Below are positions 16,641 through 28,785 of a stretch of DNA of 64,000 nt, one piece after another (position 1 is the stretch's first letter; every line of letters starts with the position of its first letter). The translations under genes and the position numbers were made by a program. The notes below the pieces were generated by a model. It saw only the letters and a list, made by a program, of their open reading frames with translations, had not been told where the DNA came from and did not search any database. Origin of the DNA: Rhodobacter aestuarii (GTDB lineage: Bacteria > Pseudomonadota > Alphaproteobacteria > Rhodobacterales > Rhodobacteraceae); NCBI RefSeq assembly GCF_900156655.1, contig NZ_FTOG01000002.1, positions 310,001 to 374,000 on the forward strand, written 5' to 3'.

Positions 16641-17405
16641 TCAGTTGCCAAACAGAGCAAGCAGGGCCATGTAGCCGACCGACGGCACCACGAGGCAGCC
16701 AAAGCCCGTGTAGAACGTCGCGGTCAGGGCACCATAAGGGACCAGTTTCGGGTCGGTCGCGGCCAGACCCGCGCTGACGCCGCTTGTGGTGCCCATCAGA
16801 CCACCGTACACAGCCGCCGCCGCCGGGTTATCAAGACCAGCAACTTTGGCGAGGAACGGGGTGAGGATCATCACGGCGATGGATTTCACCACACCAGCAG
16901 CCACCGAAAGCGCGATCACTTCCGAGGACGCACCGAGCGCAGCACCAGTCACCGGGCCGACGATGAAGGTCACGGTACCGCCACCGATGGTGGCCATGTC
17001 AACTGCACTGGTATAGCCGAAGGCATAGGCGGTCGCCGCACCAAGAACGGTCGCGATCACAACCGACACGACAAGGGCAACAGCCCCAGCGAGACCGGCT
17101 TTTTTCAGTTCTTCGAGCTTAACGCCGAAGGCCGTCGACACGATGGCGAAGTCGCGCAGCATGCCGCCACCCATCAGGGCAAAGCCCGAGAACAGCGTGA
17201 TGTCAGAGATACCTTTTTTCTCGCCGGTGATGGTGCCGCCGATGTAGGCGAGGATCAGACCGATGAGAATGGCGATCGCCGAACCGTGAATCCGGTTGTT
17301 GGTCATTTTGCCGAGCGCATAGGCCGCCCACATGATGATACCAACCGTGACGAACGCAGTGATAAGCGGAACCTTGTTCAGCGTGGTGTAAAGGATGTCG
17401 AGCAT
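16641..17405 (-). CDS. madM: Malonate transporter subunit MadM
   Basis: A 254-residue inner-membrane protein with many hydrophobic helices and small-residue-rich segments (GFALMGGGMLRDFAIV, TIGGGTVTFIVGPVTGA, YGGLMGTTSGVSAGLAA). With MadL it forms the two-component malonate carrier known from Malonomonas rubra, a sodium symporter there. It starts 6 bases after madL. It closes the mad gene set; bioM follows on the same strand. Confidence 0.92.
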   Translation of the reverse strand: MLDILYTTLNKVPLITAFVTVGIIMWAAYALGKMTNNRIHGSAIAILIGLILAYIGGTITGEKKGISDITLFSGFALMGGGMLRDFAIVSTAFGVKLEELKKAGLAGAVALVVSVVIATVLGAATAYAFGYTSAVDMATIGGGTVTFIVGPVTGAALGASSEVIALSVAAGVVKSIAVMILTPFLAKVAGLDNPAAAAVYGGLMGTTSGVSAGLAATDPKLVPYGALTATFYTGFGCLVVPSVGYMALLALFGN

Positions 17406-17411
17406 ATCTTG

Positions 17412-17792
17412 TTACTCCGCGAGCGAGGGTTCAGCCGATTTCGGGCTCAGAGCCGCAATCGGACGGATCAGCAAGAAGCCAGCAGCCACCGAGCCGAGAC
17501 CGGCGATGAAGGCCAGCGCGCCCGCGTTGAACGCCGCGACGACGTTTTGGCTGGCGGCCATGGCCACCACGATCGGGATATACATCGCCGCCCAGAACTT
17601 GATCCCGTCCTGCGCAAGTTTCGAGAATTTCTCGCGATCCATCAGGTAACGCGAGACAACAACCAAAAGCAGCATGGCGATACCCACGCCACCCACGTCG
17701 GAATTCAGGCCGACGAGCCAACCGATCGTGCGACCGATGAAAGTCCCTACGAGCATGCAGCCACCCATCAGGGCGACACCATAAATAAGCAT
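17412..17792 (-). CDS. madL: Malonate transporter subunit MadL
   Basis: A 126-residue membrane protein with about four hydrophobic helices, including GVALMGGCMLVGTFIGRTIGWLVG and GGVGIAMLLLVV segments typical of MadL. It partners with MadM for malonate uptake. A strong GGAGGA ribosome site precedes the ATG. The 62-base gap upstream holds a perfect 9-bp stem-loop. Confidence 0.92.
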   Translation of the reverse strand: MLIYGVALMGGCMLVGTFIGRTIGWLVGLNSDVGGVGIAMLLLVVVSRYLMDREKFSKLAQDGIKFWAAMYIPIVVAMAASQNVVAAFNAGALAFIAGLGSVAAGFLLIRPIAALSPKSAEPSLAE

Positions 17793-17819
17793 TTTCAGTC
17801 CTCCTTGATCTTGGAACCA

Positions 17820-17843
17820 TGGGGCGGCGACCCTGCCGCCCCA
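17820..17843 (-). promoter_or_regulatory. Intercistronic stem-loop between madF and madL
   Basis: Nine perfect base pairs (17820-17828 with 17835-17843, nearly all G-C) close a 6-base loop. No T tract follows on the minus strand, so it is not a normal terminator. It separates soluble-subunit genes from transporter genes and may act in mRNA processing or stability (inference). Confidence 0.6.
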
Positions 17844-17854
17844 CGGCAGATCGA

Positions 17855-18064
17855 TTATTCGATGGTCATGACAACCGCGCCCGGTTTCACCCGGTCGCCA
17901 ACTTGCACGGCAATCGATTTCACCACGCCGTCGCAGGGCGCCGGGGTGTTGTTTTTCATTTTCATCGCTTCGATCACGGCGACGTTTTGGCCTTTCGTCA
18001 CGGTCGCGCCTTCAGCGACTTCCAACGACACGATGACCGACGGCATCTTAACTTTCACATCCAT
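17855..18064 (-). CDS. madF: Malonate decarboxylase biotin carrier protein MadF
   Basis: A 69-residue single biotinyl domain. The EAMKM motif places the biotinylated lysine at Lys35, and the flanking strands (MDVKVKMPSV, DGVVKSIAVQVGDRV) make the usual half-barrel. It carries the carboxyl group from the MadC/MadD carboxyltransferase to the membrane decarboxylase MadB. There is no N-terminal extension, unlike acetyl-CoA carboxylase BCCP. Its presence shows that this is the biotin-dependent (Mad) and not the biotin-independent (Mdc) enzyme. A biotin ligase gene lies in the same operon. Confidence 0.93.
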   Translation of the reverse strand: MDVKVKMPSVIVSLEVAEGATVTKGQNVAVIEAMKMKNNTPAPCDGVVKSIAVQVGDRVKPGAVVMTIE

Positions 18065-18088
18065 AGCCTTCTCCTTTGCGGCATGATT

Positions 18089-18817
18089 CTAGGGGTTCTC
18101 GTATTCTCGCTCGGTTTTAGCGCTACCGTGCGAAGGCGACATGATCTCGCTCAATCGATTGCGCGAAATCAATTCCACGCCCGAAATTGTTTTGCCCAAC
18201 ACCTGATCGGCACTGGAAACAAGCTCGGACAATTTCACACCGATGGACCCAGAGAGTTCCACTTCGGCGTCGATTTTCAGCCCCGTACGCGCACTCAAAG
18301 CGCCCAGTTCAGCGTGAAAATCCATAAGACTATCAAGGGCTTTCCCCCGAACGACGATATCGACATCGGAGCCGGGGCGCAGATAGCGCAGCCCCGTCAC
18401 AACCTGCATCGCAAGCGAGCCGATCAGCCCGATTTTGCACCCGGTTTCGTCGCAAATCGCGGACAGCGCGGGAATCACCGGATGCGCGGTGTCACCCAGC
18501 ATCTCAGCCAAGCCCATCACCTCCCAAGGCGTGACGCCAGCGGTGACTTGATCGACCGAAACAGCCACCGCGGCACGCACCCGCTGCTCTTCCAAGCGAA
18601 TCGGGAACGAGAAGCCAAGCTGGCCGCCACCTTTGGGAACCGGGCCCGTCGGACGACAGGCAATGCCCGGAATCCGGTCTTTCAGGAAGATACCGCCCAC
18701 CTGCGCCTCAAGCGCAGGGTAGCGCATCGGGGCTGGCAGCGAGTCGAGCAGCGCGGGCAAAAGCACTTTGCGCGCCGCATCGTCCACATAAACCAGCGTA
18801 TGGCGGGTGCTCAGCAT
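18089..18817 (-). CDS. mdcG: Malonate decarboxylase holo-ACP synthase (phosphoribosyl-dephospho-CoA transferase, MdcG-like)
   Basis: A 242-residue nucleotidyltransferase-like protein that attaches phosphoribosyl-dephospho-CoA to the acyl carrier protein. The core GSLAMQVVTGL...PGSDVDIVV (about 132-158) has the G-S and D-x-D pattern of the MdcG family, and the N-terminus starts RHTLVYVDD as in that family. It starts 1 base after madH ends. In gene order it occupies the place of madK in the Malonomonas rubra cluster; that correspondence is from memory and the symbol used here follows the functional family. Confidence 0.85.
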   Translation of the reverse strand: MLSTRHTLVYVDDAARKVLLPALLDSLPAPMRYPALEAQVGGIFLKDRIPGIACRPTGPVPKGGGQLGFSFPIRLEEQRVRAAVAVSVDQVTAGVTPWEVMGLAEMLGDTAHPVIPALSAICDETGCKIGLIGSLAMQVVTGLRYLRPGSDVDIVVRGKALDSLMDFHAELGALSARTGLKIDAEVELSGSIGVKLSELVSSADQVLGKTISGVELISRNRLSEIMSPSHGSAKTEREYENP

Positions 18818-18818
18818 C

Positions 18819-19919
18819 TTAGCGACCTTTCACCCAAGCCGGATCGGTCTTCGCGTGGCTGCTCATATCGCGCTGCGCTTGCACCATGGCTTCAAAGAGT
18901 TTGGTCGCCTGCGGCCCTTCGATCACGATTTTCTCAGCCGCATCGGCAGTTCCGCCAACCACGCCGGGCACCAGTTCGAGCCGCGTCGTTTCGGCGCCCG
19001 TCACCAGATCGGGCGAGATTTTCACCACGCGGCTTTTGATCCGCAGGATCGTCCGGGCGGCCTTTTCAATCGTATCGGCAGCGGTGGCGGTGGTGTGGGT
19101 CACCACCACTTCATATTCTGGGTAAGTCCGCGCCCGGCGATAGGTGATGATCTCACCTTCACGGTCACAGACATGGCCAACTTTCGAGACAACAAAGCTA
19201 TCGCCCATCGGCAGGCCGCCGACCACGAGCTCACGCCAAGCGTCGCCGCGCGGCGAAGGCACAAGCGAGATGTCGTCGCGCAGCGGGCGACCATCAAGCG
19301 CCAGCCAGCCAAATTCTTGGCAGCCGTAAAGGTCATGCACGGTGTAGCCAAAGCTGGCGGCGCGCGCGATCAGCTCTTCGTCAAGGGGGGTGCCGGCGCA
19401 CAGAAGCACGCAGCCCTCGGGCATCTGTGCGCGCAGCCCCAACGCATCCGCCTGTTCAAGGCTGGCGCGCAGGAAAGAGGATTCACCAAGGATCACCTGC
19501 GGTTGCTCTTTACAAGCGGCCAGCAACAGCGCGTCGCGGCTCGACCGTTTCAGGTGGCTCCAGGTCACAGCGCTGTCTTCCAGCGCCTGTTTGGAAAAGA
19601 CGTTGACGAGGGGGGGGTAGGTGACGAGCATCTTAGCCCCCCCCTCCAGGTTCAGCCGTCCAAAGATTTCGCGAGCAACGGCGCTGCGGTCGGGGAGTTC
19701 CGCGTGTGTAACACCCACGATATTTTGGAAGGCTGAAGAGCCCGTGGTGAAGGTCAGATAGGCCAGGTTGAACGGCGTATGCACCTCTTCGATGACATGG
19801 GCCGCGGTCGGGCCAGCGATACCCTTATCCGCAAGGTTGCGGCGCGGCATCTCATCGAGAGTCGGCACAGTACCGAAGATTTCCAGGGCATCTTCGATCG
19901 CTTTAAGTTCATCCGACAT
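18819..19919 (-). CDS. madH: ACP-SH:acetate ligase MadH
   Basis: A 366-residue protein with features of the adenylate-forming (ANL) superfamily: the phosphate-binding-like TFTTGSSAFQN (about 56-66), and HDLYGCQEFGWLALDG, which resembles the Y-G-x-T-E motif with Glu retained. It is shorter than most ANL enzymes and the C-terminal lid domain is not obvious. In Malonomonas rubra MadH acetylates the thiol of the carrier protein with acetate and ATP, giving the active acetyl enzyme. The assignment rests on gene order between madD and mdcG plus the ANL motifs. Confidence 0.8.
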   Translation of the reverse strand: MSDELKAIEDALEIFGTVPTLDEMPRRNLADKGIAGPTAAHVIEEVHTPFNLAYLTFTTGSSAFQNIVGVTHAELPDRSAVAREIFGRLNLEGGAKMLVTYPPLVNVFSKQALEDSAVTWSHLKRSSRDALLLAACKEQPQVILGESSFLRASLEQADALGLRAQMPEGCVLLCAGTPLDEELIARAASFGYTVHDLYGCQEFGWLALDGRPLRDDISLVPSPRGDAWRELVVGGLPMGDSFVVSKVGHVCDREGEIITYRRARTYPEYEVVVTHTTATAADTIEKAARTILRIKSRVVKISPDLVTGAETTRLELVPGVVGGTADAAEKIVIEGPQATKLFEAMVQAQRDMSSHAKTDPAWVKGR

Positions 19920-19951
19920 ATCTGACTTCCTTTCAGGGCTCTGTTCGAGGC

Positions 19952-20845
19952 TTAGCGAGCGGGCGCGTATTGCTCCGCCACAGCCGCGAATTCACGGTTC
20001 ATCAGCTCGATGATTTTCGGGCGTGCGACCCGGCCACCGCGCTCAGCACCCAGCGCACCACGACCCCACGGGCCGAGCGTGTCCTGTTTGCCTTCCGCTT
20101 TCGCTTTTTGAACTTCCGCGATCCGCTCGATGAGCGCGGGGCGCATACCGTCGACGTTGTCGATCAGAGCGCCGACGCCACCCAGCGAGTAGAAGAAGCG
20201 CGGACCCGCCGCGAAGACCGGGCTTTTCGTCGACAGATCTTCGAGAACTTCGAGCGGCTTTTTGATGATCCGCGAGACCGAGGTCAGCGGCATCACGTGG
20301 ATCATCGTGCCGTAGTTCGCGTCGAGCGACAGGATGCTGTCGGCTTGCAGACCGTGGCACAGGAAGGCACCCGAGATCGCGCGGCCAATCACCATAGCGA
20401 TGATCGCGTGACCTTTCAGACGGGCTTCCGCCAGCGCCAGCTGGTAGGCCGCGGTCGACTTGTTCATGCCGAAGATCTCTTCGACTTTGCCCGGACCGTT
20501 ACCGGGGGTGTCGACGATCAGCACCAGCGCGCGCTTTTCTTCCAGCGGCTTGTCGGCATCGGCTGCGATCGAGGCATAGACGGCTTGCGCCATCTTGTAG
20601 CCTTCTTCCATGCCGATGATGCCCGCATAGACGACCGGGAACTTCTCGTTGAACGCATTGCCATCCGACGCGATGATCGTGGTGGTTTTGCCGTCCAGCG
20701 TGGCGGTCCCCACAACGGCGCCGGGGCCGAATTCGGGATCGTCGAAGCTTTGCGCGCCAACGGTGTTTTCTTGGAAGGACTCCGGGTCCACGATCATATC
20801 GATCGCGTCACGCCCCCGGCCCATCATGCTTTCTTGCATCTCCAT
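19952..20845 (-). CDS. madD: Malonate decarboxylase carboxyltransferase subunit MadD
   Basis: A 297-residue crotonase-fold carboxyltransferase half, equivalent to the gamma (MdcE-type) subunit. Seen: VLIVDTPGNGPGKVEEI, GRAISGAFLCHGLQADSI and ANYGTMIHVMPL, matching the oxyanion-hole and active-site strands of the family. With MadC it moves the carboxyl group of malonyl-ACP to biotin on MadF, leaving acetyl-ACP. It starts 23 bases after madC. Confidence 0.92.
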   Translation of the reverse strand: MEMQESMMGRGRDAIDMIVDPESFQENTVGAQSFDDPEFGPGAVVGTATLDGKTTTIIASDGNAFNEKFPVVYAGIIGMEEGYKMAQAVYASIAADADKPLEEKRALVLIVDTPGNGPGKVEEIFGMNKSTAAYQLALAEARLKGHAIIAMVIGRAISGAFLCHGLQADSILSLDANYGTMIHVMPLTSVSRIIKKPLEVLEDLSTKSPVFAAGPRFFYSLGGVGALIDNVDGMRPALIERIAEVQKAKAEGKQDTLGPWGRGALGAERGGRVARPKIIELMNREFAAVAEQYAPAR

Positions 20846-20868
20846 GATTTTCTCCTGTGTTTCGGGGG

Positions 20869-21825
20869 TCAGACGGAGAGCCGTTTGACGGTGCTCATGA
20901 ATTCCGCAAACGGCACGTCCAGAAGACCGGCGGCGTTTTCGTTGCCCGCTTTGGCCCAGACATCGACGGCGTCTTTGGGCTGCATTTCAGCGGCCAGAGC
21001 CACCAAGCGCAGTTGGTTTTCGACCTTCTCGGGCGAGCCGATGCGGCGCATCGCTTCGAAGTCAGCCACCGGCAGCGGCGCCAGTTCGGCGACTTGCTTG
21101 CGGAAGGCTTCGACCGTGTCTTGCACGAGGAAGTTGGCGTCACCCATGATGTATTTGTGACGGCCACCGGTGGTGCGGTAGACAAGGGCGCGGTCCGATG
21201 CGTCGAACTCTTCTTTGCCCATTTCTTGCTCGATCACTTCCGGGCCCGTCAGGCCAAGACGGCCGAACTCGCTCATGATGATCGCGTCAGTCGCTGCCGC
21301 CACGAAGCCCATGCCGCCGAAGCCGCCGACTTTGGAGCCGATGACAGCAATCACCGGAACCTTGCCGCGGGCTTTTTGCAGCTGGTCCATCACTTCAGCG
21401 TGGGCCAGAAGACCGGCGTTCGCTTCGTGCAGACGCACACCGCCCGTTTCGAACGAAATCACCACAACGGGTTTTTCTTCGTCGGTCAGGTCGGGGTATT
21501 TGGCGACCAGATCGTCGTGGAAATCGATCGCGGTTTTGATGGTGTTGACCATCTTCGCGCCGCCGATTTCGCCAACGGACCCACCGATGAATTTGCCCTC
21601 TTGCGAGATGACAAACACGGGGGTCTTACCGATCCGCCCGATGCCCGTGACGATCCCGTCGTCAAAGGCGACGGCATCCCCCAGAAGCTCAAGATGCGGG
21701 CTCGTCACCCGATCGAACGGACCGGCAAGCTCGGTGAAGCTGCCCTCGTCGACCAGGCCGATGGCCCGGTCACGCGCGCTGGCTTCAAGGAAGCTGCGGG
21801 GTTGAAGATTTTGCCAGTTGGTCAT
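20869..21825 (-). CDS. madC: Malonate decarboxylase carboxyltransferase subunit MadC
   Basis: A 318-residue protein of the acetyl-CoA carboxylase beta / MdcD group. It has SFLEASARDRAIGLVDEGSF at the start, GSVGEIGGAKMVNTI, VISFETGGVRLHEANAG and VIGSKVGGFGGMGF, as expected for the N-terminal carboxyltransferase half. It pairs with MadD. Spacing to madE (15 bases) and madD (23 bases) indicates one operon. A 1013-codon frame antisense to this gene and its neighbours is a composition shadow. Confidence 0.92.
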   Translation of the reverse strand: MTNWQNLQPRSFLEASARDRAIGLVDEGSFTELAGPFDRVTSPHLELLGDAVAFDDGIVTGIGRIGKTPVFVISQEGKFIGGSVGEIGGAKMVNTIKTAIDFHDDLVAKYPDLTDEEKPVVVISFETGGVRLHEANAGLLAHAEVMDQLQKARGKVPVIAVIGSKVGGFGGMGFVAAATDAIIMSEFGRLGLTGPEVIEQEMGKEEFDASDRALVYRTTGGRHKYIMGDANFLVQDTVEAFRKQVAELAPLPVADFEAMRRIGSPEKVENQLRLVALAAEMQPKDAVDVWAKAGNENAAGLLDVPFAEFMSTVKRLSV

Positions 21826-21840
21826 GGTTTACCCTCCGCC

Positions 21841-22158
21841 TCAGGCCGCGTTCGCTGCCGTGTAGGCCTGATGCAGGCGCAGCAGCACGACGGCCGGAGT
21901 GGCGTTGTTGTCGTTGATCTCGATCCGGGTGTCGGACAGCGAGGTTTCGTCGATGAACTTGCGCAGGACGCGCTCCCACAGGGCGTCGAAACCGGTCACC
22001 GGGGTGACAAGTTTCACCGACACCTTGCCCGAGAGGTCTTCGGGTTGGATCAGCACTTCCAGATCGCTCGAACCGGTGACGCCGATATGGGTCGGCGCTT
22101 TCACCGGGCCAGCGGCCGTTGCGGGTTCGAGGGTGAGCTCGAGAGTATGCAAAGCCAT
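21841..22158 (-). CDS. madE: Malonate decarboxylase acyl carrier protein MadE
   Basis: A 105-residue carrier. The prosthetic-group site aligns as VTGSSDLEVLIQP, with Ser30 in the position of the Ser of the G-S-G-D-x-E-V-L motif in MdcC. This serine receives 2'-(5''-phosphoribosyl)-3'-dephospho-CoA, whose thiol is acetylated in the resting enzyme. It lies 15 bases after madA and before madC, the standard order. Confidence 0.9.
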   Translation of the reverse strand: MALHTLELTLEPATAAGPVKAPTHIGVTGSSDLEVLIQPEDLSGKVSVKLVTPVTGFDALWERVLRKFIDETSLSDTRIEINDNNATPAVVLLRLHQAYTAANAA

Positions 22159-22173: not shown

Positions 22174-23847
22174 TTACCAGTTGCGGAAACGCGCGGGCGG
22201 GTTGTAGAGGCCGCCGGACCAGGTCACGAGATCGCGCATGTTTTTCGCCGCGAGCAGGTCGCGGGTCGCACGCGAAGGATCGATGCCCAGATCGGACGGG
22301 GTCTTGACGATGCCGGCCTCGCGCAGGGCTTTCGTCTCTTCGGGTTTGGCGGTCAGACCGATTTCGGTGAAACCAGCCACAGCACGGATCGCCGCCATGC
22401 GGGTTTCCATGTCTTTGCAGCGGTTGAGGTACGCAATGCCCTCTTCCGTCACGATGTGGGTGAGGTCGTCGCCATAGATCATGACCGGCGGGATATCGAG
22501 GTTGGCACTCTTGGCGAGTTTCCACGCGTCGAGTTCATCCACGAACACCGGTTTGCGGCCTTCACCGAAGGTTTCGACACCTTGCACCACCAGACGCTTG
22601 CCGCGCGGCACCGAGCCGGTGAGCGAGTCAAGCGAGGGCAGTTCCTCACCGCATTTGAGCCAGGCACCCGACGGGTGACGACGGCCTTTGGGGTCGCAAC
22701 CCATGTTCGGCGCACCGCCGAAGCCCGCCACACGACCAGCGGTCGCGGTCGAGGAGTTGCCGTATTTGTCGATCTGCAGCGTGCCACCGATGAACATGTC
22801 GGCCGCATAGTGACCGGCCGTTTGCGCGAAAGCGCGGTTCGACCGCAGCGTCCCATCGGGGCCGATGAAGAACACGTCGGGGCGCGATGCCACGTAGTCT
22901 TCCATGCCCAACTCACCACCGAAGCAGTGGATCGCTTCAACCCAGCCTTCTTCGATCGCGGGGATCATCGTCGGGTGCGGGTTGATGATCATATGGGTGC
23001 AGATTTTGCCTTTCAGGCCAAGTTCTGCGCCATAGGTCGGCAAGATGAGCTCGATCGCCGAGGTCAGGAAGCCGATGCCGTGGTTCATCGAGGTGACGCC
23101 GTATTCACCGTAGATGCCTTTGAGGCACATCATCGCCAGAAGGATCTGGTTGTCGGTGATGTTGGCCGGGTCACGGGTGAACAGCGGTTCGATGAAGAAG
23201 GGTTTGGGCGATTCGATGACCGCATCCACCCAGTCGCCCGGGATGTCGACGCGCGGCAGTTCGTCAACGATTTCGTTGACTTGCGCGATCACGATGCCGT
23301 CTTTGAACTTCGTGGCTTCCACGATCACCGGGGTGTCTTCAGTGTTGAAGCCGGTGTAGAGGTTGCCTTTGCGGTCCGCTTTATAAGCGCAAACGAGCGA
23401 GACGCGCGGCGTCAGGTCGAGGAAGTAGCGGCCAAAGAGTTCCAGATAGGTGTGGATCGCACCGAGTTGGATTTTGCCGTTGTCGATGAATTCGGCAACG
23501 CGCGCGGCTTGCGGGCCGCCGAAAGCGAAGTCGAGTTTTTTCGCGATACCATTGTCGAACAGATCGAGGTGCGATTTCAGCGGCACCGCCGATTGCACCA
23601 TGTGCAGATCGTGGATCTTCGATTTGTCGACTTGGTTGAGGCAATCGGCCAAGAAGTCAGCTTGCTTCTGGTTGTTGCCTTCAATGTTGATGACGTCACC
23701 TGCCCGGATCACTGCTTCAAGCAGCGCCACGGTATCTTTGGCGAGAACTTCTTTGCCCTTGGCGAAGAGCGGCGCTGCCGCTTCTTTCCGCGCGGCGGTA
23801 TCGGCCGCTCGCGTGCGCCAATCTTTGCGCGTGTCGTGTTGGGTCAT
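22174..23847 (-). CDS. madA: Malonate decarboxylase subunit alpha MadA (acetyl-ACP:malonate ACP transferase)
   Basis: A 557-residue acyl-exchange subunit with the family start NDTRKDWRTRAADTA-like, the LDFAFGGPQAARVAEF, VSLVCAYKADRKGNLYTGFN and AGFGGAPNMGCDPKGRRHPSG segments conserved in MadA/MdcA. It swaps acetate for malonate on the MadE thiol, forming malonyl-ACP. Length matches MdcA (about 550). Its ATG overlaps the stop codon of the biotin ligase gene by 4 bases. Confidence 0.94.
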   Translation of the reverse strand: MTQHDTRKDWRTRAADTAARKEAAAPLFAKGKEVLAKDTVALLEAVIRAGDVINIEGNNQKQADFLADCLNQVDKSKIHDLHMVQSAVPLKSHLDLFDNGIAKKLDFAFGGPQAARVAEFIDNGKIQLGAIHTYLELFGRYFLDLTPRVSLVCAYKADRKGNLYTGFNTEDTPVIVEATKFKDGIVIAQVNEIVDELPRVDIPGDWVDAVIESPKPFFIEPLFTRDPANITDNQILLAMMCLKGIYGEYGVTSMNHGIGFLTSAIELILPTYGAELGLKGKICTHMIINPHPTMIPAIEEGWVEAIHCFGGELGMEDYVASRPDVFFIGPDGTLRSNRAFAQTAGHYAADMFIGGTLQIDKYGNSSTATAGRVAGFGGAPNMGCDPKGRRHPSGAWLKCGEELPSLDSLTGSVPRGKRLVVQGVETFGEGRKPVFVDELDAWKLAKSANLDIPPVMIYGDDLTHIVTEEGIAYLNRCKDMETRMAAIRAVAGFTEIGLTAKPEETKALREAGIVKTPSDLGIDPSRATRDLLAAKNMRDLVTWSGGLYNPPARFRNW

Positions 23848-24740
23848 TTGCTTTCGTTTTCCTCCTTTGCAGGTGCATTCCTCGGAAGGTCGCCGTGAGT
23901 GATGATTTCCGGGGGGGAACCGATTTCGCCGCAGATGGCGTTGTGAAGTTGGCCGTCCGCGTCGCGCAGCGTGAGGCTGCCGTCGGTTTCAAGCCGGATG
24001 GCGATGCCCCGCAGGGGCAGGCCGTTGGTATTCAAGGTGATCTGGCTGCCGAGCGTGCACGAGCGTGCGCTCCAAGCTTGCCGGATCGGTTCAAAGCCTG
24101 CGCGCTCCCAATGCGTGAGCCACACTTCGAGTTGCTCCAGCACTTCATTGAGCATCTCGAGCCGGTCGATCTTGCGCCCGGTTTCAAGCGCGATCGAAGT
24201 GGCAAAGCCTTGCAGGGCAGACGGAAAATCGCTGACGCGGTGATGAAGGTTCAGGCCGACACCCGCGATGATATGGGCGGGATCACCGTCGTCGTTCAGC
24301 ACCAACTCACACAGGATGCCGCCCAGTTTGCGCCCGCCGACCATCAGGTCATTGGGCCATTTGATCGAAGTTTCGAGACCGGCCAATTGCGAGATCGCTT
24401 CAGCAATCGCAACGGCGATCACGAGCGTGGTCTGGGCCAGGTCTTCGACAGGACGCGCGGGACGCAGCAAAACCGAGAATGTAAGGCTACTTTCGGGGAG
24501 GGACGCCCATTCACGGTCGTATTTGCCACGCCCCGCGGTCTGTGCGTCGGCGACAATCACCGTGCCGGTGCGCGTTAGCGCGGGGGAGGAGCCGGCAGCG
24601 AGATCGGAGAGGTACCGATTGGTTGAGTCGACGACGGGAAGATGATGGATCACACACCCGACCCCGGCTTGCGGCCGCTGAGGCCGCGCAGTGCACGGAA
24701 GCTCGGAGGCTTGGGCTTGAGGGGTCGGATGCGCGTTCAT
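23844..24740 (-). CDS. birA: Biotin--protein ligase (BirA catalytic type) embedded in the mad operon
   Basis: A 298-residue ligase. VVDSTNRYL, then AGRGKYDREW (the biotinyl-AMP-binding G-R-G-[RK]-x-x-R-x-W), SIKWPNDLMV and GGILCEL are diagnostic of the catalytic domain; a C-terminal SH3-like part follows. There is no N-terminal helix-turn-helix, so it does not look like the repressor type. It overlaps madA (ATGA) and follows madB by 22 bases, so it is probably produced to biotinylate MadF at Lys35. Whether the genome has a second housekeeping birA cannot be seen. Confidence 0.88.
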   Translation of the reverse strand: MNAHPTPQAQASELPCTARPQRPQAGVGCVIHHLPVVDSTNRYLSDLAAGSSPALTRTGTVIVADAQTAGRGKYDREWASLPESSLTFSVLLRPARPVEDLAQTTLVIAVAIAEAISQLAGLETSIKWPNDLMVGGRKLGGILCELVLNDDGDPAHIIAGVGLNLHHRVSDFPSALQGFATSIALETGRKIDRLEMLNEVLEQLEVWLTHWERAGFEPIRQAWSARSCTLGSQITLNTNGLPLRGIAIRLETDGSLTLRDADGQLHNAICGEIGSPPEIITHGDLPRNAPAKEENESK

Positions 24741-24762: not shown

Positions 24763-25971
24763 TTAGTTCACAAGACCGATGGTCGAGGCGAACACACCCA
24801 CAGCGATGGCCGAGACGATGACACCGCAGATCGAGGCACCCATAGCGAGCGGCATGATCATGGCGTGGGGGCTGGCAGCGAAGGCTTCACGTTGAGCGAT
24901 CTTCGCGGTCGAGGGCATGCAGGACACACCAGCGATACCGATCACGGGGTTGTAGTTGCCGTTCGAGAGCTTCCACACGAGGTAGCCGCCGCCGATACCG
25001 CCCACCGCCGAGATAGCCAGCGCGGTGATGCCGAGGACCACGAGGATGGCCACTTGCGGATCAAGCAGGGTGCCAGCGTCGCACAGCACACCAAGAACCA
25101 GACCAAGGAGCAGCGTCGCCGAATAGGTCACGGTGTTTTCGAGCAGTTTTTGATAGGGCTCGATTTCCGCTTCTTTGATCGCCACGCCGAGGAAGAACGA
25201 CAGGATCAGCGGGGTAGCAACCGGGAGCAGCAAGCAAAGCAGGCCAGCAGCAGCAACGGTGAAGACGAATTTCGCTTGCGGCGTCACGTCCGGGAAATCG
25301 TATTCCACTTCGATACCGCGGTGCTCTTCTTTGATCAGCCAGCGCACAAGGTAGGGGTAACCGGCATAGGTCAGCGACAAGTAGAGGTAAGCGATGATCG
25401 AGATCGGAACGAACAGTTCTTTGGCCATGATCAGCGAGCCGAACAGAACCATCGGGCCATCTGCACCACCAATGGTGCCCACAGCGGCGGCTTGGTTCGG
25501 GGTGAGGCCCATGTAGTAGCCGATCACCAGCGTCACGAAGGTGCCAAGCTCAGCGCAAACGGCAACCGTGATCGAGGCCCAGGGACGCGCCAAGATGAAC
25601 GAAATATCCGCCATCGTGCCGATGCCCATGAACAGCATGCAGGCCACAAGCGAGTTCACGAAGGTGAAGTTGTAGATCGGCTGCAGGAAGTCGATCTGCA
25701 TGATGTTCATCAGCGCGTCAGTGTCAGACACCAGCGGCGAAATGATCAAGGTGCCGATTTGGCCGCCTTCGAGGATCATGACACCGGCGTTGACGGCCAT
25801 CATGCCCAGCCCCATCGGGACCATGATCAGCGGTTCAAGCGTGCGCTTGAAACCAAGGTAGGCGAGCAGGAAGCCAAGCCCGATAAAGGCAAGCCGCGCA
25901 AAAGCGATCAGCGGCTCCTGTACAAAGAGCGTCCCGATCCCCGGGAACACGTTGAAGAGGGTTTCTAGCAT
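24763..25971 (-). CDS. madB: Sodium-pumping carboxybiotin decarboxylase MadB
   Basis: A 402-residue integral membrane protein of the OadB/MmdB/GcdB family with about ten hydrophobic helices. The conserved GTIGGADGPMVLFGS holds Asp171, equivalent to the Na+-coupling Asp of OadB, and NPVIGIAGVSCMP corresponds to the second conserved Na+-site region. It decarboxylates carboxybiotin on MadF and exports Na+. It is followed by birA and preceded, 10 bases away, by a 37-residue membrane protein gene. Confidence 0.94.
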   Translation of the reverse strand: MLETLFNVFPGIGTLFVQEPLIAFARLAFIGLGFLLAYLGFKRTLEPLIMVPMGLGMMAVNAGVMILEGGQIGTLIISPLVSDTDALMNIMQIDFLQPIYNFTFVNSLVACMLFMGIGTMADISFILARPWASITVAVCAELGTFVTLVIGYYMGLTPNQAAAVGTIGGADGPMVLFGSLIMAKELFVPISIIAYLYLSLTYAGYPYLVRWLIKEEHRGIEVEYDFPDVTPQAKFVFTVAAAGLLCLLLPVATPLILSFFLGVAIKEAEIEPYQKLLENTVTYSATLLLGLVLGVLCDAGTLLDPQVAILVVLGITALAISAVGGIGGGYLVWKLSNGNYNPVIGIAGVSCMPSTAKIAQREAFAASPHAMIMPLAMGASICGVIVSAIAVGVFASTIGLVN

Positions 25972-25981
25972 TGGGAGATCC

Positions 25982-26095
25982 TCAGGCGTTGGAGTCGGAC
26001 AAGAGCTTGGAAATGCCCACGATGACGCCGATCACGGCGAAAGAGATGACCGCGGTGATCAGGTAGCTGGTCGCGGCATAGACGATGATGTTCAT
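25982..26095 (-). CDS. Small single-pass membrane protein (37 aa) between mdcB and madB
   Basis: ATG at 26095 to TGA at 25982 encodes 37 residues: a start MNIIVYAATSYL, one hydrophobic helix covering about residues 3-27, and a polar tail KLLSDSNA. The ATG is preceded by GAGGATCAAG, a good ribosome site placed at the end of mdcB, and the stop is 10 bases before madB. Position and topology recall the small single-span gamma or epsilon subunits of other sodium-pumping decarboxylases (OadG, MmdE), although it lacks their Pro/Ala linker or C-terminal domain. A structural or assembly role for MadB is inference. Confidence 0.72.
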   Translation of the reverse strand: MNIIVYAATSYLITAVISFAVIGVIVGISKLLSDSNA

Positions 26096-26103
26096 CTTGA
26101 TCC

Positions 26104-27075
26104 TCAGAGTTGGGGAGCCGCGGCGGGGGAGGCGCCGTGCTCAGAAGTTGCAGGGGGAAGCTGGCCACCAAGCAGCGCATCGACGCCAATGGTCACGGCC
26201 AGCAAATCGGCGGAACCGCCGGGCGAAAGATGGCGGGCAATACAGGCGGCGTCGAAGGCATGGATGGCCTCCATCCCCGCCTCGGTCAGCGCCCCGCCAA
26301 GGGCACGGATCCGCCGCGCTTCGGCCTGTACGAAAGCCAGAGCCTCCGGGCCACCGCGCCACAAAAGCGTGGTGTCTTCGGTCTCTGTCATTAGCGCGAG
26401 CAGCGTATCGAGCAGCACCGCCGAAAGCGGCGCACCGATATCACGGGCCGCCCGCAGCGCCGGCAGGCCGGTGCTGCGGACGGTCGGGAAACCGGCCTCG
26501 GCCTCGCCGCGAATGCCCAACACACCGTATTCTTTGTAGAGTTTTTCTCCGGCAGTGCGGGGCGCCCGGTTTCCTAGGCTGCGCAATTCCCGGTCGCAGA
26601 TCCCACGCACCATATCGGTCGCGGTTGCGAACAGGTCTTGCTCGGTGCAGGTCGGCTGAAGGCGCATCACACTGCCGGCGGCAGCGCTCAAAATCCCAGC
26701 CGAGAACAGCAGGCCACGTTGCGTGTTGACTCCCTGCGTCGCGGCGAGCAGTCGCGACTCGTAACGGGCACCGATTTCGCGCACAGGCGCAAGCAGTGTC
26801 CAGGCAGGGCCGTTATGGCCCAAACCGAGCTCGGCACATTGGTAAAGGCAGGGTGCAATTACCGCCGAGGAGACCATAAAGGTCTGGATGTTCATGTCTT
26901 CATGCGACCCGTTGGAACGGGGCGTCACAAGACCGGGTTTCGGATGTGTGGAGATTTCCAGAAGCGCGCCAGTCAGAAAGGCCGAACCAATCGACCAGGC
27001 GTTTGACTGCGGCCACAGCGACATGTCGCTGTACCAGTCAAGTGTCCGCCGCAGGGCGTATTTCATGGGTTTCAT
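26104..27075 (-). CDS. mdcB: Triphosphoribosyl-dephospho-CoA synthase MdcB (CitG family)
   Basis: A 323-residue CitG/MdcB family enzyme that makes 2'-(5''-triphosphoribosyl)-3'-dephospho-CoA from ATP and dephospho-CoA, the precursor of the MadE prosthetic group. The signature HPKPGLVTPRSNGSHEDMN (about 44-62) is diagnostic; GVNTQRGLLFSAG and YGVLGIRGEAEAGFP are also typical. ATG codons lie at 27075 and 27066. It is the first structural gene of the mad operon and corresponds by position to madG of Malonomonas rubra (inference). A 507-base leader region lies upstream. Confidence 0.9.
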   Translation of the reverse strand: MKPMKYALRRTLDWYSDMSLWPQSNAWSIGSAFLTGALLEISTHPKPGLVTPRSNGSHEDMNIQTFMVSSAVIAPCLYQCAELGLGHNGPAWTLLAPVREIGARYESRLLAATQGVNTQRGLLFSAGILSAAAGSVMRLQPTCTEQDLFATATDMVRGICDRELRSLGNRAPRTAGEKLYKEYGVLGIRGEAEAGFPTVRSTGLPALRAARDIGAPLSAVLLDTLLALMTETEDTTLLWRGGPEALAFVQAEARRIRALGGALTEAGMEAIHAFDAACIARHLSPGGSADLLAVTIGVDALLGGQLPPATSEHGASPAAAPQL

Positions 27076-27391
27076 CCCGCATAACCGACGGGGAGCGGCG
27101 CGCCCACGGGCGTCACAGCTTGCTATCCATGGCCAGATGAAGGGATTACATCCGGTCCGGAGAACCGTCGGGAATGCACCACACGAATGTCACTTGCGCA
27201 CGCGGTGCTTTGGGCTTGTCAGCTCTACCGCACAGCTGGCGGCAAGGCTCATCACAGTCGTCACGGCCCGGCCTTCAGAGGGCTCGGGCGGCCTCGGTCA
27301 ACTTTGCGTGAAAGCGTGTCGCCCCGGGGTTGACGTGATCGATACGCCTAGTTTTTCAGCTTGTCCAGTCTTCGTTTTGACCGCCCGATAA

Positions 27392-27524
27392 ATGCGACAT
27401 CATGTGCATATTGACAGGATAATACCCAAATTATTCATGCGGATAGGAAATTATGCAGGTAAGATTCACTGCAAGAAAAAGCCCAGCCCCAAATTGGGGC
27501 CGGGCACTCGACAGGATGTCGCAT
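27392..27524 (-). repeat. 10-bp inverted repeat flanking the second terminator
   Basis: ATGCGACATC at 27392-27401 is repeated in inverse complement at 27515-27524 (GATGTCGCAT). In the minus-strand RNA the two copies can pair across terminator 2, possibly enclosing it or competing with it; as DNA they could be two operator half-sites 113 bases apart. The copy at 27515-27524 also overlaps a small dyad, CGACA-GGA-TGTCG (27509-27521). Confidence 0.55.
27476..27505 (-). terminator. Intrinsic terminator 2 upstream of the mad operon
   Basis: An 11-bp stem (27481-27491 with 27495-27505, one G-T wobble on the RNA) with a 3-base loop is followed on the minus strand by TTTTT (27480-27476). It lies between the hutP-like gene and mdcB, facing the operon, and is a strong candidate for regulated read-through. 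Confidence 0.85.
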
Positions 27525-27542
27525 ATGGGTGTTTTTAAGGGG

Positions 27543-27566
27543 AAAACAAGGCCCCGAAGCGGGGCC
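27543..27566 (-). terminator. Intrinsic terminator 1 just after the hutP-like gene
   Basis: A 7-bp G/C stem (27550-27556 with 27560-27566) with a 3-base loop is followed on the minus strand by TTGTTTT (27549-27543). It starts 16 bases after the stop of the hutP-like gene. Confidence 0.75.
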
Positions 27567-27582
27567 ATGCAAATTTTGCCAC

Positions 27583-27999
27583 TCAGATATGCATTACGCC
27601 GAATCCGATGCGTTCATGGTTGGTAATCGGGTGAAAAGCCGATTCGCCATGCGCCGCAACGGCAACCCAATGCCCATCCGAGACCAGCGCCACCTTCAGT
27701 TTCAGGTTCGACTCGGCCACGACCGAAGAACTCACCCCATGCAAGCACTCTAGCCCGGCATGGATCACGCCGTGAATCTCGTCTGGCCGATGCCGCACCA
27801 CCTGCGCGTTAAGTGCACAAGCGACGATCGATTTGACAAAGCCACGCTCAATTTCGGTGCGCTTACCAGTCACGAAAGTGATCCCTACACGCCAATTCGG
27901 ATGCGCAGCGATTTGCTCCTTGATCCGTTCTTCTTCCTCGCGGCTGCTGATGGCGGCCATGATGGCGGCCTTACCGATCCTGTCAGCGGTGATTTCCAT
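27583..27999 (-). CDS. HutP-family RNA-binding antiterminator homologue
   Basis: A protein of 138 residues from the ATG at 27999 (in-frame ATG at 28035 and TTG at 28059 would add 12 or 20 residues). It matches Bacillus HutP along its length: DRIGKAAIMAAIS at the start, EIHGVIHAGLECLHGV (HutP: ESHALYHATMEALHGV), WVAVAAHGE, and ERIGFGVMHI at the end (HutP: ETFGVGINHI). The three metal-binding histidines of HutP (His73, His77, His138) correspond to His76, His80 and His137 here. HutP, with L-histidine and Mg2+, binds RNA and prevents termination upstream of the hut genes. Here the next genes downstream are mad genes, behind two terminators. The ligand is unknown. Length (HutP about 148) and a GGAATGG ribosome site favour 27999. 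Confidence 0.85.
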   Translation of the reverse strand: MEITADRIGKAAIMAAISSREEEERIKEQIAAHPNWRVGITFVTGKRTEIERGFVKSIVACALNAQVVRHRPDEIHGVIHAGLECLHGVSSSVVAESNLKLKVALVSDGHWVAVAAHGESAFHPITNHERIGFGVMHI

Positions 28000-28083
28000 A
28001 ACGCGATTCCATTCCGACCCGATTTGCGCTTCCATATCGTCGCAGGGCGGCGCGCTCAACGCATTTGATGCCTCAAACGCATA

Positions 28084-28635
28084 TCAAGCGTGCCCCGCCG
28101 CTGCAGAAAGGGTTCGCGGGTCGATCCCCATCGTGCCAAGCGCGCGCGACCATTTGGTGGCATAGGCCGCATCCAAGGCAAGCTCTGGATTTGGTTCGGC
28201 AATCAGCCAGCCGTTGTTCAAGATTTCCTGCTCAAGCTGGCCCGGCCCCCAACCGGCATAGCCCAGCATCAGCATGGCCCGCGCCGGCCCACGCCCCGCG
28301 CCCCACTCTTCCAAAATATCGCGCGTTGCCGTCATTGCCAGCCCTTCGCCAACGGGCATCGTTGCGGCAAACCAATCCGCCGAATGCAGCACAAAACCGC
28401 GCCCGGTTTCGACAGGCCCCCCAAACAAAATCGCGTCTTCACGACGGCCACCTGCGGTCAGCGGAATGCCGATTTGCTCAAAAAGCCCGCCCACATCGGG
28501 TTCCGGCACGGGTTTATTGACGATCAACCCCATCGCGCCTTCGGGCGAATGGGCGCACATCACCACCACCGAATGCTCGAATCGCGGGTCTTCCATGCCC
28601 GGCATGGCAATCAGCAGTTTTCCGGTGAGATCCAT
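28084..28635 (-). CDS. YqgE/AlgH family protein
   Basis: A 183-residue protein of the YqgE/AlgH family (UPF0301). It begins LTGKLLIAMPGMEDPRFEHSVV and contains GAMGLIVNKPV, FGGPVETGRGFVLHS and LGYAGWGPGQLEQE, all family hallmarks. The function is not established. It lies 84 bases upstream of the hutP-like gene on the same strand, so the two could share a transcript. It is divergent from the DsbD-alpha-like gene. Confidence 0.92.
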   Translation of the reverse strand: MDLTGKLLIAMPGMEDPRFEHSVVVMCAHSPEGAMGLIVNKPVPEPDVGGLFEQIGIPLTAGGRREDAILFGGPVETGRGFVLHSADWFAATMPVGEGLAMTATRDILEEWGAGRGPARAMLMLGYAGWGPGQLEQEILNNGWLIAEPNPELALDAAYATKWSRALGTMGIDPRTLSAAAGHA

Positions 28636-28785
28636 CGCGGCCCCCTTTCGCGCAACAAGCGCCCCCCTTCAAGGTGGCGCGACGCGGCCCTGCAATCAAC
28701 CCCCGCGCAGCGAAATCCGCCCCGCATCCAACGGTTGGCGCTTTTGTGACTTGGAACGCCCCCCTTGCTACGGCTATCGGAAAGT

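Follow-up and report, generated by a model that had tools for sequence, protein, structure and literature searches.

In a 64,000-nucleotide (nt) stretch of the Rhodobacter aestuarii genome (contig NZ_FTOG01000002.1, positions 310,001 to 374,000; referred to throughout as the window), we identified a gene of the HutP family with a Na+-malonate decarboxylase (mad) operon directly downstream of it. Our favoured reading, to which we assign a probability of about 0.77, is that the product is a HutP-type leader-RNA regulator dedicated to the Na+-malonate decarboxylase operon, reading triplets that recur with a period of 8 or 9 nt. The evidence that carries this reading is the family and the fold of the protein, its association with the operon across genomes, the periodic triplet arrays in the mad leaders and the finding of no arrays where HutP is absent or degenerate. 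An earlier note on this DNA, made from the sequence by itself, had proposed a HutP-family antiterminator acting at two terminators behind its own gene. Comparative genomics upholds an RNA regulator tied to mad with a different RNA target, and speaks against control at the two terminators. The gene and the putative leader are as follows.

27583..27999, minus strand: HutP-family gene, 138 amino acids, ATG at 27999 (Pfam, fold match and residue alignment)
27076..27332, minus strand: putative mad leader RNA, about 257 nt, with a GUG array

That the gene encodes a HutP homologue is confirmed by two of the checks that the earlier note had suggested, a Pfam profile search and a structure prediction, which return the HutP family and the HutP fold. 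The protein matches PF09021 over its full length (residues 8-136) with 120.3 bits against a cut-off of 25 (E-value 8e-35), and scores below the cut-off for NF002838, the hut-specific NCBIfam equivalog (33.4 bits; cut-off 155). In a sequence search of the PDB three HutP sequences alone reach E < 0.001, and a profile of 39 relatives returned the same three. An AlphaFold2 model of the monomer, based on an alignment of 39 mad-linked sequences, has a predicted local distance difference test score (pLDDT) of 92.8, and the top 11 matches of this model in a Foldseek search of the PDB are all HutP (TM-score over the query, TMq, 0.73-0.80). H76, H80 and H128 align with the histidines of the HxxxH and LEHE motifs of solved HutPs, positions that are metal ligands in Bacillus subtilis HutP. 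Two of the three metal-binding histidines named in the earlier note, His76 and His80, are therefore retained, and by alignment with the solved HutPs the third is H128 rather than His137. Residues were counted in 44 of 50 HutP sequences, six near-copies being left out. Outside the Klebsiella group all 40 mad HutPs retain H76 and H80, and 39 of the 40 retain H128; the four members of that group have all lost H76 and H80. Residue 100 is lysine in 16/16 HutPs from alphaproteobacteria, Malonomonas rubra and Deferribacteraceae and alanine, serine or asparagine in 24/24 from Bacillota and Eggerthellaceae, a split that tracks phylogeny and so is a tentative lead to triplet specificity. In the immediate neighbourhood of the window gene we found yqgE and mad genes and no adjacent hut genes.

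To ask how regularly HutP accompanies mad, MadB was scanned in one genome per species, which gave 98 relatives, of which 80 loci were kept. HutP was present in 31 of the 34 loci with both mdcA and madB, versus one of the 46 other MadB loci, and at that single locus the contig ends before mdcA. Sixteen further loci came from the classes of Propionispira and Adlercreutzia; two were repeats (L208=L026, L221=L042), and among the 14 new ones HutP was found in 10/10 mad operons versus 0/4 MadB loci lacking mdcA (one of the four on a short contig). The survey for HutP beside mad genes that the earlier note had also suggested thus gave a positive answer in both sets. Within the genus of the window, 7 of 18 genomes have HutP, and the same seven have MadB over its cut-off. 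Whole-genome searches of 20 genomes showed a single HutP copy in 14 of the 15 that have the protein. Against draws from its family, class and phylum, HutP was over the cut-off in the genome of the window alone (1/295, 1/385 and 1/398, respectively), with matches below the cut-off in three other genomes of the class and phylum draws. We considered that the gene might be a lone, horizontally acquired oddity and rejected this, since its rarity follows the distribution of mad, as the genus comparison shows.

The carriers of HutP with mad include Rhodobacter, Afifella, Roseospira, Breoghania, Rhodobium, Pseudovibrio, M. rubra and Deferribacteraceae, as well as Klebsiella, Phytobacter, Propionispira and other Bacillota, and Adlercreutzia and its relatives. 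In R. capsulatus SB1003 the hutP-mad module is on plasmid pRCB133. The position of hutP in the locus varies: it may be first, divergent (Deferribacteraceae), between madB and mdcA, or last (Klebsiella group), which fits a trans-acting regulator. Four mad operons (L209, L210, L211 and L215) carry a pair of HutP genes, the second of which sits immediately in front of madB.

The earlier note saw no regularly spaced NAG array in the window leader. There is indeed no GAG array, but the leader does carry an array of GUGs at regular intervals of 8-9 nt, which had been overlooked; it holds ten GUGs in total, and the elements of interest are these.

27266..27289, minus strand: hairpin P2 (GCCCG/CGGGC), immediately 5' of GUG site A
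27252..27264, minus strand: GUG site A, with GUG at 27264 and 27255, step 9
27176..27208, minus strand: GUG site B, a hairpin (GCACC/GGUGC) with three loop GUGs at 27201, 27193 and 27184

The step at site A is 8 in six other aligned Rhodobacter sequences. One stem pair of site B is replaced in R. capsulatus and Breoghania, with G-C in place of A-U, and both hairpin B and a long-range helix (D) are located 5' of the start of mdcB, the first mad gene. The spacing of GTG was counted in 14 leaders, namely 13 of the 16 from alphaproteobacteria (near-copies left out; one of them a truncated contig whose available part holds no HutP) and that of M. rubra. All 14 have GTG pairs at distance 8, 28 pairs in total compared with a shuffle mean of 2.8, with 14 pairs at distance 9 and one at distance 7. 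Random segments of the same loci gave a mean of 0.8 and a maximum of 5 such pairs in 500 draws, and no GAG pair at distance 8 occurs in these GUG-type leaders. A triple-GTG pattern just before mdcB was found in 14/14 alphaproteobacterial HutP loci and in both truncated alphaproteobacterial mad contigs, whose available parts hold no HutP, with no antisense match in 0.76 Mb comprising all mad loci and two matches in a 1.40-Mb control. M. rubra has two GUG pairs ahead of hutP and another two in the hutP-mdcB interval. The Deferribacteraceae leaders, which were left out of the counts, have a looser GUG/GUA series. A strict search for GTGA-N4-GTGA misses the array in the window leader, where the first step is 9, and found none in Bacillota, Eggerthellaceae, Klebsiella-group or Deferribacteraceae leaders.

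Two covariance models were used for site B. Within the genus, the matches of model R2 (E up to 1) fall in exactly the seven genomes with HutP and in no other of the 18; six of the seven had been in its training set, and R. viridis (L058) was outside it. A second R2 match in the genome of the window (23.9 bits, contig C18 of our set) looks like coding DNA by eye and was taken as chance. Model R1, built from other alphaproteobacteria only, finds the Rhodobacter sites weakly (E 0.2-8) and in the right place, and misses L027 and L058. Across 190 alphaproteobacterial genomes R1 gave one weak match at E up to 0.1, a scan that is a weak control because R1 misses the genome of the window at that cut-off. 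Rfam searches of 26900-28700 (E up to 5) returned six sub-threshold matches, which were taken as chance. Base-pairing between the site-A spacer and the ribosome-binding site of mdcB was also considered and dropped, as by our reading it occurs in R. capsulatus-type leaders and L015 and not in the window or L013.

GTGA-N4-GTGA repeats also occur before madL in several alphaproteobacteria (L017-L019, L022 and L023, near 18170-18350), with three in a row in Roseospira (L018). This array in the gap between the biotin carrier gene and madL partly overlaps the madL start and is not universal; it may give the transporter a second point of control.

In Bacillota and Eggerthellaceae the corresponding triplet is GAG. 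Among 18 leaders (near-copies L038, L040, L042, L046 and L221 and truncated L052 left out), 17 have GAG pairs at distance 8, with 34 pairs in total compared with a shuffle mean of 2.2, and a single pair at distance 7; with the repeat L221 included there are 36 pairs in 18 of 19 leaders. These leaders also contain terminators. In the first leader set a terminator lies upstream of the first mad gene in 10/12, versus 10/180 resampled sequences. A period-8 G[A/U]G pair falls over the 5' arm of 17 of the 31 hairpins followed by a T run, in 14 of 18 leaders, versus 15% of random intervals; the 31 hairpins include upstream and unrelated ones, and L221 was left out of these counts. Of nine leaders examined for NAG triples over a terminator 5' arm, six have them at period 8 (0.88 expected; the six represent three independent groups), and none has them at periods 6, 7, 9 or 10. 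From these sequences we consider HutP-type antitermination in the mad leaders of Bacillota and Eggerthellaceae most likely. In two of the loci an Rfam cobalamin riboswitch is located between the HutP-site terminator and madB (L218:15337-15476 and L219:15352-15492, both minus strand), which suggests a two-input leader.

Control leaders bear on how specific these arrays are. The 43 leaders of other MadB loci (19 kb) contain 2 GAG and 11 GTG pairs at distance 8, and no distance-8 pairs were found in the three mad operons without HutP or in six leader stretches of the Klebsiella group.

A number of observations weigh against the favoured reading. Three mad operons lack HutP at the locus, and the whole-genome searches found none elsewhere in those genomes either. 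The z-scores of the distance-8 excesses over shuffled leaders (16 for GTG, 22 for GAG) overstate the evidence, because leaders within a genus are not independent. Step 8 is not the only raised distance: GTG distances 9, 11 and 14 are also raised, as are GAG distances 6 and 10, both probably from GAGAG overlaps. In the control leaders, where GTG pairs number 12 at distance 6, 5 at 7 and 5 at 9, step 8 is not the lowest. The triple-GTG pattern was not found in the mad loci of M. rubra, Deferribacteraceae, the Klebsiella group, Bacillota or Eggerthellaceae, and L018 has two extra sense-strand matches away from its mdcB leader. Covariation in hairpin B is limited to one of four pairs, and the predicted folding of the window leader is little better than that of its shuffles (z -1.3). 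Terminators are scarce in the leaders of the GUG type, with one weak match in 16 alphaproteobacterial leaders and none in M. rubra or two Deferribacteraceae. On the GAG side, L217 has HutP but no period-8 pair, although the tested stretch begins shortly before a terminator-like T run located upstream, so that the array may have been missed; in L207 and L039 no terminator arm is covered by a pair, and the same scan shows no terminator in L033. A switch from GAG to GUG would, moreover, require a changed RNA code, for which the correlated K100 is the sole lead in the protein.

The region between hutP and mdcB contains the following elements.

27550..27566, minus strand: terminator-like hairpin 1, 3' of hutP and upstream of the promoter-like element (not conserved)
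27481..27505, minus strand: terminator-like hairpin 2, 3' of hutP and upstream of the promoter-like element (not conserved)
27339..27367, minus strand: promoter-like element TGGACA - 17 nt - TATCGA (sequence only)

The earlier note was right that two terminator-like hairpins stand behind hutP (27566-27550 and 27505-27481), and the order of hutP, terminator and operon resembles that of B. subtilis. Shuffled versions of the region are expected to contain 1.2 such sites, so that the pattern alone is not strong. It could be proposed that mad is transcribed from upstream of hutP and that HutP controls read-through of both hairpins. We regard this as very improbable. The hairpins were not found in the equivalent gap of 6/6 other Rhodobacter loci; among six further alphaproteobacterial loci, a single hairpin is present in the hutP-mad gap of L017 and of L027. 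Below both hairpins lies the promoter-like element, whose CTGGAC[A/T] box is present in 12 of 13 alphaproteobacterial loci with hutP first (not found in L027), and the arrays are lower still. The element would place the start of the mad transcript near 27332. A mad start below both terminators, which the earlier note had named as evidence against its own proposal, is therefore probable on the strength of this promoter-like sequence. As hutP is divergent or last in other groups, its order is also not a conserved feature of the loci. Being above the promoter-like element and not conserved, the two hairpins most simply, and probably, terminate the hutP transcript.

Two other explanations concern what the repeats do. 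They might be DNA operator half-sites of a classical transcription factor, with HutP employed elsewhere, for example in enzyme assembly or sensing. Direct repeats can serve as DNA sites, malonate genes in other bacteria are controlled by DNA-binding regulators, and the Klebsiella operon is adjoined by a LysR gene. This explanation is nevertheless improbable, given that the arrays are downstream of the promoter-like element, that the triple occurs on one strand only and that a step of 8 nt is mismatched to the helical repeat of DNA. Arrays also overlap terminator arms in Bacillota and Eggerthellaceae, one is in a hairpin loop whose stem carries a compensatory change, and none was found where HutP is absent or degenerate. 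Alternatively, HutP may bind the leader but mainly affect translation or mRNA stability in every lineage, the terminators of Bacillota and Eggerthellaceae not being its target. Alphaproteobacterial leaders without a terminator, and the location of hairpin B and helix D 5' of the mdcB start, are in keeping with such a role. As an account of all lineages we think it unlikely, since Bacillota and Eggerthellaceae leaders have terminators ahead of madB, often with the array on the 5' arm.

The reading that we favour, a HutP dedicated to mad leader RNA, can be put as a mechanism. HutP would probably form a ring-like oligomer, in which the three-histidine site is filled by a divalent metal and a pathway metabolite; the retention of the three histidines suggests a metal plus a chelating metabolite as the signal. 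Malonate is a bidentate metal chelator, and our first guess is that it takes the place of L-histidine as the ligand. The loaded protein would then bind the mad leader RNA at G-A/U-G triplets that follow one another every 8-9 nt. Binding should block the terminator before madB and allow transcription into mad in Bacillota and Eggerthellaceae, where in most leaders the GAG array overlaps the 5' arm of that terminator. In alphaproteobacteria some of the GUG triplets would be displayed in the loop of a hairpin that lies downstream of the mad promoter and upstream of mdcB. Below the promoter-like element we found no intrinsic terminator in the leader of the window, and with none visible in the alphaproteobacterial leader the likelier step is Rho-dependent termination, mdcB translation or leader stability, on one of which binding probably acts. 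We know of no prior description of a HutP mechanism on a structured leader without an intrinsic terminator. A broader proposal, which we advance tentatively and at less than even odds, is that HutPs are old, reprogrammable, metabolite-gated RNA readers, in which malonate chelates the metal of the three-histidine site, the period-8 triplet switches between GAG (alanine, serine or asparagine at residue 100; Bacillota and Eggerthellaceae) and GUG (K100; alphaproteobacteria and Malonomonas), and the alphaproteobacterial forms act without an intrinsic terminator.

The order of the genes downstream is mdcB, madB, biotin ligase, mdcA, mdcC, mdcD, mdcE, a madH-like gene, mdcG, biotin carrier, madL and madM.

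26104..27075, minus strand: mdcB, triphosphoribosyl-dephospho-CoA synthase, first mad gene (TIGR03132 over cut-off)
25982..26095, minus strand: small hydrophobic open reading frame (ORF), 37 amino acids, between mdcB and madB (from sequence)
24763..25971, minus strand: madB, Na+-transporting carboxybiotin decarboxylase (TIGR03136, 778 bits)
23844..24740, minus strand: biotin--protein ligase (TIGR00121)
22174..23847, minus strand: mdcA, malonate decarboxylase alpha (TIGR01110, 950 bits)
16644..22158, minus strand: mdcC, mdcD, mdcE, madH-like gene, mdcG, biotin carrier, madL and madM (mdcD, mdcE and mdcG over cut-off; others via the R. capsulatus annotation)

Matches over the cut-off in the operon are TIGR03136, TIGR01110, TIGR03132, TIGR03133, TIGR03134 and TIGR03135, and the names of mdcC, the madH-like gene, the carrier, madL and madM were transferred from R. 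capsulatus. The madH-like protein has no Pfam or NCBIfam match. Small ORFs resembling the one between mdcB and madB precede madB in several Bacillota and Eggerthellaceae loci (examples compared by eye), and the 37-residue hydrophobic product could serve the sodium pump as a small membrane subunit.

HutP is not confined to mad in every lineage. In the phylum of Propionispira 194 of 299 genomes have a HutP above the cut-off, and there seven high-scoring examples (L115, L116, L120, L126, L129, L134 and L138) are not beside mad but have aroH (chorismate mutase), trpE, cmk and others as neighbours. These proteins also match PF09021 over the cut-off; the HxxxH motif is missing in all six whose frame was examined, whereas mad HutPs keep it. 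The aroH/trpE-type HutPs are a second non-hut subfamily. Propionispira has in addition a second HutP (L099, on contig C15 of genome G1050; 142 bits) at the end of a sodium:solute symporter-like gene, possibly a further non-hut context.

The Klebsiella group (CP125156.1 and relatives) resembles the other mad loci in having the HutP gene within the operon. It differs in that hutP is last, convergent with a LysR gene in CP125156.1, that H76 and H80 are lost and that the period-8 array was not found, and its HutP looks like a replaced or degenerate branch. In three loci of the group (L012, L030 and L034) there is a long gap before madL in which the arms GCTAAAAG and CTTTTAGT could pair.

To our knowledge, HutP was previously known as a single case, with one protein, one operon and histidine as the ligand, and a search of the open-licence part of PubMed Central by title found nothing linking HutP or antitermination to malonate decarboxylase or the Malonomonas mad genes. 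Our results propose a candidate regulator for Na+-malonate decarboxylase operons and place the HutP fold as the near-constant partner of an unrelated operon across several phyla, with an RNA code that differs by lineage. The mad HutPs thereby offer a natural series for studying how triplet specificity and ligand change in an RNA-binding protein.

The closest known system is the hut operon of B. subtilis. The window HutP shares with B. subtilis HutP the Pfam family, the fold, the conserved three-histidine site and a triplet-repeat RNA target. Sequence identity is only 21-24% to the HutP chains of the fold search other than 4ok9 (30%). Most mad leaders of Bacillota and Eggerthellaceae are also like the hut leader in that the array overlaps a terminator, which resembles what a review reports for B. 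subtilis. The operon, however, is mad rather than hut, and the alphaproteobacterial triplet is GUG rather than NAG. The triplets of B. subtilis hut RNA have a period of 7, compared with 8 in the mad leaders, and in the window leader a terminator was not found. A more distant likeness is to TRAP, also a ring protein that reads regularly spaced leader triplets, but one with an unrelated fold, about eleven repeats, a shorter step and tryptophan as its ligand.

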